In this document: piece after piece, positions 33,789 through 38,348 of the stretch
Numbering within the stretch: the first letter of the stretch is position 1
How the letters are laid out: each line of letters opens with the position of its first letter
Translations under genes and position numbers: made by a program
Notes under the pieces: model-generated
Told to the model about the DNA's origin: nothing
The model's input: only the letters and a program-made list of their open reading frames with translations
The model's database searches: none
Assembly (NCBI GenBank): GCA_020091685.1
Contig: CM034614.1
Location: 370,598-434,597 of the forward strand
From: Lutjanus erythropterus
Taxonomy: Eukaryota > Chordata > Actinopteri > Lutjaniformes > Lutjanidae
Direction of reading: 5' to 3'
Length of the DNA stretch: 64,000 nucleotides

Positions 33789-36700
33789 ACATCATCTGTC
33801 AAAGACGGTAATGAAGGAGACAAGGACATGACCAGTGGAGGAAAGAAAAGGAAAGAGGGACGGAATGAAGGAACAGAGGTAGAAGAGAAGGAAAGAAGGA
33901 GATACAAAAGGAAGTATAGAAGGAGGTATAGAAGGAGGTTGAGAAGGAAAGAAGGAGATAGGGAAGGAGGTATAGAAGGAGGTATAGAAGGAGGTATAGA
34001 AGGAGGTAGAGAAGGAAAGAAGGAGATAAAGAAGGAGTGTAGGAGGTCAGCAGTCTGTCAGCTTGAAGGTGGAGGCAGGTGAGACTCACCTGAGGTCTCA
34101 GATTTATAGATGGAGATGCTCGGGTAGAGGGAGTTTTTACTTCCTGTACTCGCCCCTGCACACACATCATGACATCATCACGACATCATCACTGTTCACG
34201 TCCTGTATTAACAGTTGAATGCGTCGAGTTTTGGGCGAGCCGTTACCTGTGCCGCTGGGCGGCGGCTGGTCGTAGCTGCTCGTTGCTCTCTGCTGAGGTG
34301 GAGCCGGAGGCCTGGATGGAGGAACAGACGACTGCAGACAAAAACAGATTCGTCTTATTCGTCATTCTGCGTTTCCTCAAGAAAGAGCGCGTGAATTCTG
34401 ACACCTGAAACGGAGGCTGAACATGAGCGAGTGTAAAGGTGTTCTTCACCTTTGGACGCATGTTCTTGCTGGTCCAGTCGGCCGTGTACGCCTCAGTGTA
34501 CTCGTCCAGGATGTGGTAGAGGTCGTAGCATTCTGACGGCGGAGCCACATCGCCGTTCAAAATGGCCGAAGCTCGGATGTCCTGGGAGTAGAACCTGCAG
34601 CCGTAAACACACAAATTTAAACTCATAAGACACACGAGTTTTGCTGTGTCACATTTGAATACGTTTCTAAAACAAAGTGTGACTGAATGCTCCACTGTCA
34701 CCGTCACAAAACCATGATACCGCGTCAACGGTCAGTCATGTGACTTAAACGTTTGCTACATCAGAACCGGTTCACCAAAAGTGTTTCCATCTCCCAGTTT
34801 AGAAAAAGACAAATCCAGCTGGTGACAAACGTCTCTCATGTTTGCGTACTTGCGGTTGGTTTCTTTGCGTTCGATCAGGTACGATCCCTCCAGAGAAATC
34901 CCAGCAAACAGACCTCTGGACCGACAGTAAGTGAAGACGGCCGCCGTGCTGCGAAGAGCGACGTCGGCCTCCACGTTCCTGAAAGAGACGACGATAAAGG
35001 AAACTCTGTGAGGAGCAGGTAACACGATACACACCTCCAACTTCTCAGTTAGGAAACCAGTTCCTTTCACTGTGTCCCGCTACTCAACTCGACTCAAGTC
35101 TCAAGTCTCAAGTCAAGACCAACAGGTTCCACGTCAGGTCAAGTCAACCTGAACATGCTTTTAGTATTTTTTGTGTTTGTCTTCAAAAATAAATGTTTAT
35201 GTATAAAATCTGCAGCCTCTTATTTTGGAAACAGCCACAGTTTGACATCCACACGTTCACATCAACACTTATTTGTCTTTCTGTCTGCAGTTCACGTAGT
35301 CCACAGCATCAGACAACTATTCTGATGTCAGCATTTACCTGCCAGTCAAATACCTGGCCACGCCCACACACACACACCTGCCAACACACGTGCACGCGAC
35401 AAAACCTGTCGAGCGACCCTGAAACAACACTGACCGCCTCGTTCTAAATTTAACCTCACACACATAAATCAGAGCGTCTAAAGTAAATCACATCTGATGT
35501 TGTAACCGCCGCCAAAGTTGAAGAAACAGCAAATCAGCGAGTGTTTCTGCTTCAAGCCTCCAAACACAAACACAACAACTGTCATTAAACGCCTCGTAAA
35601 TCAGCAGGCAGAATAAAGCATTAAACCCTGAGCTATAATTAACATCAAGAGTCACCATTACATGTAATTAAGACACAGACAGGGTGCAGGTGCTCACCTG
35701 CCCATGGGGCCCACGGCGACGGTGCAGTTCCCACCCAGCGTCAGGTTCCCGCCCTTCGTGAAGGCCTCGATGGCTCGCCGCTGGTTCAGGATGATCACCA
35801 GATCTGACACCTGAGAGAGAAACAAACACGCACAAACCTGGTTTGAGAGCGAGTAAAGTGCTACTCCATTACAGTTACAGGGAGAGAAGTGTAATCAGAT
35901 TACAGATAATCAGAGTTAAAAAGCGTTTTATTCACTGAATAGAATTCAAAATCAGAAAAGAGGAGAAACATCATAGAACAGAGACCGTTCTGCCTTCAGC
36001 TGTGAGAACACTGTCATCATCAGAGAACGCAACATTAAAAAAAACATTTACAGGTCAGAACAATCGCTAATGTTAGCTACACTGAACAATCGCTAATGTT
36101 AGCTACACTGAACGATCGCTAATGTTAGCTACACTGAACGATCGCTAATGTTAGCTACACAGAACAACGGCTAATGTTAGCTACACTGAACAATCATTAA
36201 TGTTAGCTACACAGAACAACGGCTAATGTTAGCTACACTGAACGATCGCTAATGTTAGCTACACTGAACAATCGCTAATGTTAGCTACACAGAACAATCG
36301 CTAATGTTAGCTACACAGAACCAATACGCTAATGTTAGCTACACTGAACAATCGCTAATGTTAGCTACACAGAACAATCGCTAATGTTAGCTACACTGAA
36401 CAATTGCTAATGTTAGCTACACAGATAAACTAAACACTTAACAAACAAAAACATAAACAATTACAAAATATTTGGTATTGAGGTAATCCAAAAGTAACAA
36501 AGTAATCGATTACCTTTGAACCTTTGAACAGGTAATTAGTAACTGTATCAGATTACATTTTCAAAGTAATCTCTCTCTACTTTTCTGTGCAGTTTTAAAC
36601 TTCATATACTGTCTGAATGATTTATTTCTGTAGACCGGAACATTTCAGGGGCCAGTCAGTCAGATCCTGGCGTGATCACTGACCTCCACCCGATCTGAAG

Positions 36701-38348
36701 CCTCCTCCCAGACCAGCGATGCGATGGCGGCGGTGCCGACCAGCCTGAACAGAAACAGGGCGATGACATGAGACGGTCTGATGCTGTGACATCTTCCTCA
36801 GTCAACAATCCGACTGACACACCAGTTCAGACAAAATAAACAGCTGGTCATGTCGGGGTGAACTGTCCCTTTAAGAGCAATGATGATTTGTGAAAGATTT
36901 GATTGTGATGTCACAACAGATTTTAGGCAAAAACAAACTTTGAAGCTTTCTGAGCAGCTGCAGGAACAAGAGAGTGGACTGGGGCGACAAAGTGTCCAAC
37001 GTCTCCACCGTCCACTGTGTCAAAGCAATAAAACAGCAGCTAAGGTAGCTAACACTAGAGTTAGCAAACACTATCATTAGCTACTTTTAGCAAAATCGAC
37101 TGTTAGCGAACAGTGTAGTTAGGTACTGTTAGCCAGTTAGCTTGTACTCCAAGTGGAAAAGTGAAAACAGAACAGATCGTCTGAACATTTATTTAACATT
37201 TATTAATGTCTCCAATCTGGCTGTTCATCTGTCTAATCACCATGGTAACAAATAGGTCCTCACCTTAATCACCATGGTAACCAAACAGTTCAGTTAGGAG
37301 CTGCATGTTGGAAGACCCAAATCTGACCTGAAAGGAGAAGCCACAACTCCTTGGCTCACAGAGACGTTCTCGACTCAGCAGAAGATGTGTATAAGAGACA
37401 GCCCCCTCCTCCTCCTCCTCCTCCTCCTCCTCGATGTTTATCAGTTGACAGTCAGATGTTATCAGTGATCTTATATTTAAAATCTGGATGGAAAATAAAA
37501 AGCTCCAGTTTTTATTGGCGCCACTGTTTTCAGATTTGGCTGAACGGTTCTCATAAATCAGGAGAACCAGCAAACCACCAGAAGGCCCCGCAGAGGAAGC
37601 GCGACGTCACATCAGCCGTGTGATCCTCGCCGGCGTTTTGGCACCACGACAAACATCCGCGACCAAAATGTCAGTGCCTGCACCACCGGACGAGTCCTTA
37701 ACACCCGGAACACATCAGATGACTGCACACACACACGCCGCCGCCCACAACGCTGCGGGGACATCTGAGAGAACGAGGCTGTTTGTAACCACGGCAACAC
37801 AAAAAGTCCCCAAAAAATAAAACCTGAAGGGGACACAGAGAAACACGAAGGAAAGACCTACCAGGACCGAAGGGCTGTAAGACTGTAGGACTATGGGACT
37901 TCTGGAAGAACACTTTATTTTGTCCACTAGGACACTTCAGAGGACACTTTGTCCTGTATTTTTTATGTCCTCCCTCTGTCCTCCACCGAGGACATGAAAG
38001 CGGACATACAGTCACATGACGTTGTGTTTGGTGCGTCTTACGTCTGTCGGCCAGTCTGGCGATGACGATGCCGCTGCCTCCTCTGGCGGTGATCATGAAG
38101 CCGGCCTTGATGACGGAGATGATGGCGAGACCCTCGGCCTTCGCGATCACATGAGCTGCAACACACGTCATGTCAAACATGTAGTGACTCCGTCTCTCTG
38201 CTCTCCATCACTTCTTATGTTTATATCATTTCTTTACCGGGGATGAGTTTGTCCGGCCCGTTCCTGTTGGAGATTTCCGTGAAGTCTCTCAGGATCTTGG
38301 CGGCTTTCTTGGCCTCTGACCTCAGGTTGGACGGGATGGGGTTACTCA
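32847..38348 (-). CDS. sh3yl1: SH3YL1 (SYLF lipid-binding plus SH3 domain protein)
   Basis: Phosphoinositide-binding SYLF domain followed by a C-terminal SH3 domain; the family acts in membrane ruffling and actin regulation. Minus-strand exons: 38238-38348 (SNPIPSNLRSEAKKAAKIL), 38042-38155 (HVIAKAEGLAIISVIKAG), 36684-36744, 35698-35810 (VSDLVIILNQRRAIEAFT), 34850-34978 (ALRSTAAVFTYCRSRGLFAG), 34450-34594 (FYSQDIRASAILNGD), 34247-34331, 34090-34155, 33443-33475 (QFSSRNSPNYG) and 32847-33055 (SH3: PGDLSFVPGDRITVITKTDS then YDWWEGQL, GIFPANFV, stop). The 36684-36744 exon encodes WSAP...IAGLGGGF but is about 4 bases too short to stay in frame; the others are intact. The start codon must be in an upstream exon (expected MVSNP or MSNP), probably near 40.8 kb, which I could not pin down. 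Confidence 0.95.
33243..33275. repeat. Dispersed repeat CTTAGCACAAAGACTG, copy 2
   Basis: TACCGTAGCTTAGCACAAAG and following bases match the copies at 26.2 and 48.9 kb. It lies in an sh3yl1 intron. Confidence 0.6.
33627..33787. repeat. (CA)n and (TG)n pair in an sh3yl1 intron
   Basis: (CA)n at 33629-33669 and (TG)n at 33757-33786, about 90 bp apart and in inverted orientation. Confidence 0.93.
33890..34045. repeat. AGAAGGAGGTAT minisatellite
   Basis: About 12 copies of a 12-13 bp AGAAGGAGGTAT unit. On the sh3yl1 sense strand it is pyrimidine-rich. Confidence 0.9.
36060..36424. repeat. 26-bp minisatellite (CGCTAATGTTAGCTACACTG)
   Basis: About 14 tandem copies of a 26-bp unit (CGCTAATGTTAGCTACACTG plus AACAAT) in an sh3yl1 intron. 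The GCTAATGTTAGC core is itself a near-palindrome found in dispersed repeats elsewhere in the window (42.8 and 48.4 kb). Confidence 0.95.
37344..37401 (+). other. Sequencing-adaptor artefact: Tn5 mosaic end plus stLFR-like adaptor
   Basis: Positions 37383-37401 read AGATGTGTATAAGAGACAG, the exact 19-bp Tn5 mosaic end used in tagmentation libraries. The 39 bases before it (37344-37382, CAACTCCTTGGCTCACAGAG then ACGTTCTCGACTCAGCAGA) match, as I recall it, the reverse complement of the BGI/MGI stLFR read-2 adaptor. Translated, it gives HRDVLDSAEDVYKRQ, a known contaminant signature in predicted proteins. A (CCT)n run follows directly. Confidence 0.93.
37402..37433. repeat. (CCT)n tract next to the adaptor
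   Basis: About 10 CCT units beginning at the adaptor end; probably the hard-to-sequence site where the assembly was joined. Confidence 0.9.

Follow-up and report, generated by a model that had tools for sequence, protein, structure and literature searches.

The 58 bases at 37344-37401 of the window, the whole 64,000-nucleotide stretch analysed here, consist of two abutting synthetic pieces, an adaptor and a Tn5 mosaic end (ME). It is confirmed that these bases are real as letters and synthetic by origin, a laboratory artefact and not biology. They almost certainly represent the untrimmed end of a BGI/MGI stLFR (single-tube long fragment read; Tn5-based linked-read) library molecule that was assembled in, leaving a scar in an intron of sh3yl1; a gap next to it was probably closed afterwards.

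Make-up of the insert and its place in sh3yl1

The features at and around the insert are as follows.

37344-37382, minus strand: stLFR reverse (second) adaptor, 39 nt, present as its reverse complement on the plus strand, exact match to the adaptor printed in PMC10989976
37383-37401, plus strand: Tn5 mosaic end, 19 bp, exact, sequence AGATGTGTATAAGAGACAG
37402-37432, plus strand: three C's and a (CCT)n simple repeat, adjoining the ME on its genomic side
36688-36745, minus strand: sh3yl1 exon in which the frame shifts two to four times
38046-38156, minus strand: sh3yl1 exon stretch on the higher-coordinate side of the insert, 84% identical to the SH3YL1 peptide probe, with no gap and no frame break

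An exact ME at 37383-37401 had been claimed in an earlier note, together with an stLFR read-2 adaptor in reverse complement for the 39 bases that precede it. Both identifications are borne out: the ME agrees at 19 of 19 nt, and the preceding bases agree at 39 of 39 nt with the letters in the portion of PMC10989976 that prints the stLFR forward and reverse adaptors and gives the -R sequence for filtering stLFR reads. The reverse-complemented -R adaptor is 45 nt long, and positions 37344-37382 reproduce its last 39 nt with zero mismatches. The remaining 6 outer nt are mismatched at all 6 positions of the window site, so the left edge at 37344 is correct. The stLFR forward adaptor begins with the same 19 nt in reverse complement, and the ME at 37383-37401 is the sole match in the window at up to 3 mismatches, compared with a mean of 0.04 matches in shuffled-window controls (at least one match in 4 out of 100). 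With equal base frequencies, chance alone would give about 5e-7 exact ME copies in the window and 0.007 in the whole genome. All 14-mers of both adaptors and of the constant tail that follows the forward adaptor were screened, and in the window they occur at the insert site alone. The right flank of the insert is single-copy (1 match), the window contains no N bases, and the (CCT)n tract noted earlier beside the ME is present at 37405-37432, separated from it by three C's.

Exons of sh3yl1 were located with human SH3YL1 peptide probes, which matched the minus strand in order at 38349-38239, 38156-38046, 36720-36688, 35813-35697, and 34980-34846, followed in order by the SH3 part at 33008-32853 on the same strand. 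Pfam Ysc84 matches the minus strand at 34846-34980 and 35685-35813, and these are the only matches in the genome at E ≤0.001 (4 candidates scored). The second of these stretches contains one TGA in the six-frame count, at the 3' edge of the exon, where it appears, as read, to fall in the splice donor. Since minus-strand exons of sh3yl1 lie on both sides of the insert, the insert is intronic, in agreement with the locus proposed earlier; its intron spans 38046 to about 36750, and no exon was found to be interrupted. The peptide DVLDSAEDVYKRQ, called an artefact in the earlier note, is indeed one, a plus-frame reading across intronic synthetic bases. According to a passage of PMC11075570, 18 nt of the Tn5 end encode the linker peptide DVYKRQ. 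There, DVYKRQ is an intended part of a fusion protein, whereas here it is an intronic artefact, and DVYKRQ-type peptides predicted at such places of this assembly are not animal proteins. A Pfam scan of 10 open reading frames, including one across the insert and chosen from 125 that are 90 aa or longer, returned 0 families, and an Rfam scan at gathering thresholds returned 0 matches.

Sister copies and barcoded constructs in the same assembly

The assembly to which the window belongs (937.6 Mb, 444 contigs), a fish genome to judge by the gene and the repeats, was searched for further copies of the synthetic pieces. The 39-mer of the reverse adaptor has 5 exact copies on five different contigs, the stLFR forward adaptor has 64 copies at up to 2 mismatches (47 of them exact), and the ME has 141 copies; the reversed-pattern control of each gave 0. 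The adaptor copies lie inside contigs that measure tens of Mb and occur at more than 60 places.

All 64 forward-adaptor sites were read: eight as L006-L013, 54 by region, and two inside L003 and L004. An exact ME forms the 18 bases before the forward-adaptor 27-mer, its last base being common to both, in 62 out of 64 sites, and it is one base off in the other two. The constant 28-nt tail after the forward adaptor is intact in 54 sites, and beyond it lies variable sequence, an N run, or flank. In six of the 64 sites the tail is followed by a 10-mer and GGAAGG, and three of them (L003, L004, and L013) continue with a 10-mer, CGCAGA, a further 10-mer, CCAGAG, and the reverse adaptor, giving a barcode block of the form 10-GGAAGG-10-CGCAGA-10. 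The reverse adaptor is complete (45 nt) in L003 and L004 and is cut after 23 nt in L013. Thus L003 (contig C6) and L004 (contig C7) carry the whole construct of ME, forward adaptor, barcode block, and 39-mer-bearing reverse adaptor. The two share the same insert of about 170 bases and the same barcode, both lie between (AAT)n and flanks that differ; the barcode of L013 is a different one. Three 10-mers with 6-nt linkers match the barcode layout of stLFR. The sister sites resemble the stLFR construct in this barcode, and the copies in the assembly share with it the Tn5 ME and the forward and reverse adaptor letters printed in PMC10989976. Unlike that construct, the window site has the adaptor and the ME joined without a barcode.

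Allowing up to 2 mismatches, this direct junction of the reverse adaptor with the ME is found in the genome at the window site alone. In the four remaining copies of the 39-mer, the adaptor's inner end directly abuts genomic sequence, which is what 3'-branch ligation predicts; in the library protocol of PMC7751402, transposons are inserted, barcodes are transferred from beads, and the second adaptor is joined by 3'-branch ligation. The uniqueness of the junction points to an unusual by-product or to another BGI Tn5 library; it may be a ligation by-product or a product of such a library, and it is synthetic either way.

Among the ME matches listed (100 of the 141), clusters of four MEs with identical spacing (42, 34, 52) were seen on four contigs: L071-L074 (C1:14693058-14693204), L077-L080 (C2:10822281-10822427), C10:41206863-41207009, and C14:23123055-23123201. 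The clusters on C1 and C2, both of which were read, share one adaptor concatemer.

Repeats, N gaps and the proposed origin of the scar

The forward-adaptor sites are associated with simple repeats and with N gaps. A simple repeat was defined as a perfect repeat of period 1-4 and at least 12 bases, no more than 40 bases from the adaptor. One was present on the genomic side of 50 out of 64 forward sites, compared with 126 out of 2976 same-loci control positions (3200 were drawn, and those containing N or too short were dropped) and 338 out of 5000 window positions; 14 of the 64 sites had no repeat of at least 12 bases on that side. The repeats beside the three 39-mer sites that lack the full construct are GA, TA, and CCT, the last being that of the window. 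N occurs within 120 bases beyond the forward adaptor in 25 out of 64 sites (single Ns in two of the 25), and in 19 sites an N run begins 27-32 nt past the adaptor, about where the constant tail ends; the other 39 sites have no N within 120 bases. In these 39 N-free sites, to which the homopolymer test for unpolished fill was confined by dropping the other 25, long homopolymers were fewer on the outer side in all six settings, a weak effect (one-sided p 0.012-0.21). As synthetic library sequence within an assembly, the copies resemble the adaptor and vector contamination dealt with in assembly curation (PMC7794651). They differ in that they are internal to contigs, number more than 60, and in most cases adjoin simple repeats.

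From these associations we infer an order of assembly steps that ended in a long-read gap fill at the insert. A short-read contig would have ended inside the (CCT)n repeat and would have been extended via adaptor-bearing reads along the constant letters of the ME and the adaptor. This extension would have halted at the CAACTCC edge, and at sister sites where barcodes make the reads diverge. The outer gap, toward lower coordinates, would then have been closed, probably with long reads, leaving the adaptor scar in the sh3yl1 intron. A comparable procedure appears in PMC7751402, where stLFR reads are assembled by Supernova and gaps are filled by TGS-GapCloser with error-corrected long reads.

The exon nearest to the insert on the lower-coordinate side (36745-36688, about 0.6 kb away) retains the conserved GWSAP, IAGLGGGF, and IG, which no longer share one frame: within about 65 bases two frame changes are clear, and up to four are counted with the short pieces AI and VE. 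By contrast, the other five sh3yl1 coding stretches have no stop and no frame break against the probes, and the sole gap in them is a single residue, in frame, within the SH3 part. The frame changes probably reflect base errors left when a gap was filled with long reads and are not the mark of a pseudogene. A 26-bp minisatellite of 14 copies was observed at 36058-36422, where the short-read assembly may have broken a second time. Together, the frame breaks and the minisatellite would fit a gap toward lower coordinates that had been closed with unpolished long reads. Of the two events that the earlier note thought the adaptor might mark, gap filling is thus supported indirectly, by the N gaps beside sister sites and, on one side of the insert, by the broken frame of the nearest exon. 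Nothing points to a misjoin of distant loci, as the sh3yl1 exons keep their order and strand from one side of the insert to the other.

As a tentative generalization, to which we give slightly less than an even chance, such scars may be a systematic sign, in assemblies based on stLFR, of short-read contig ends beside unpolished long-read gap fills. If scars do mark unpolished fills, an adaptor scan would map seemingly frameshifted exons and seemingly broken genes. The insert itself is of use for assembly quality control only. Masking would be needed at more than 60 places of the assembly, and frame breaks beside adaptor scars, such as that in sh3yl1, should not be called pseudogenes without a check of the reads.

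Other sources of the sequence and searches for contamination

The adaptor could instead come from a different BGI/MGI Tn5 library made from this animal, such as one prepared with a single-cell or spatial kit in which the transposon consists of adaptor plus ME. Such a source would explain why the direct adaptor-ME junction is seen at the window site alone, and a transposon of this make-up is suggested by a passage of PMC9643508, in which primer GAGACGTTCTCGACTCAGCAGA amplifies cDNA cut by in-house Tn5. Nevertheless, stLFR barcode blocks are joined to the same reverse adaptor in this assembly, and we regard a second library as unlikely.

A natural insertion of Tn5/IS50 type, or another genuine genomic element of the fish, would account for the exact 19-bp ME but not for the synthetic adaptor that adjoins it or for the barcode blocks at sister sites. 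No 9-bp target duplication was found beside the insert (flanks GAGAAGCCA on the left and CCCCCTCCT on the right), and a transposase cannot fit in 58 bases. Thirty of the 141 ME sites were read (L068-L097), several of them in one cluster and so non-independent. In 28 of the 30 a piece of the forward adaptor directly precedes the ME, either GTCTTCCTA (27 sites) or a form short of one base (one site); the two others, L075 and L097, have a simple repeat alone before the ME. The forward-adaptor 27-mer lies within about 200 bases of the ME in 19 of the 30. A natural element is accordingly extremely improbable. Chance resemblance, in favour of which nothing was counted, is virtually impossible, being contradicted by an unbroken run of 58 bases that agree throughout with synthetic library pieces and by 141 genomic copies of a 19-mer for which 0.007 exact copies are expected.

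Similar sequence was sought in public records. Exact scans found 0 copies of an adaptor 52-mer in viral contigs and 0 copies of an adaptor 33-mer in bacterial and archaeal genomes. With the 58 bases as the query, BLAST matched 88 phage and 67 plasmid records; among the matches listed (20 of the 88 and 20 of the 67), no single place covers 80% of the query. Some of those listed correspond to parts of the ME or of the adaptor's first 19 nt, and others (e.g., in methylase, helicase, and replication genes) were taken as presumable chance matches. Two phage records, PQ358089.1 (25754-25772) and PQ374146.1 (33-51), contain the first 19 adaptor nt no more than about 50 bases from the record ends, which looks like MGI adaptor contamination of public phage records.
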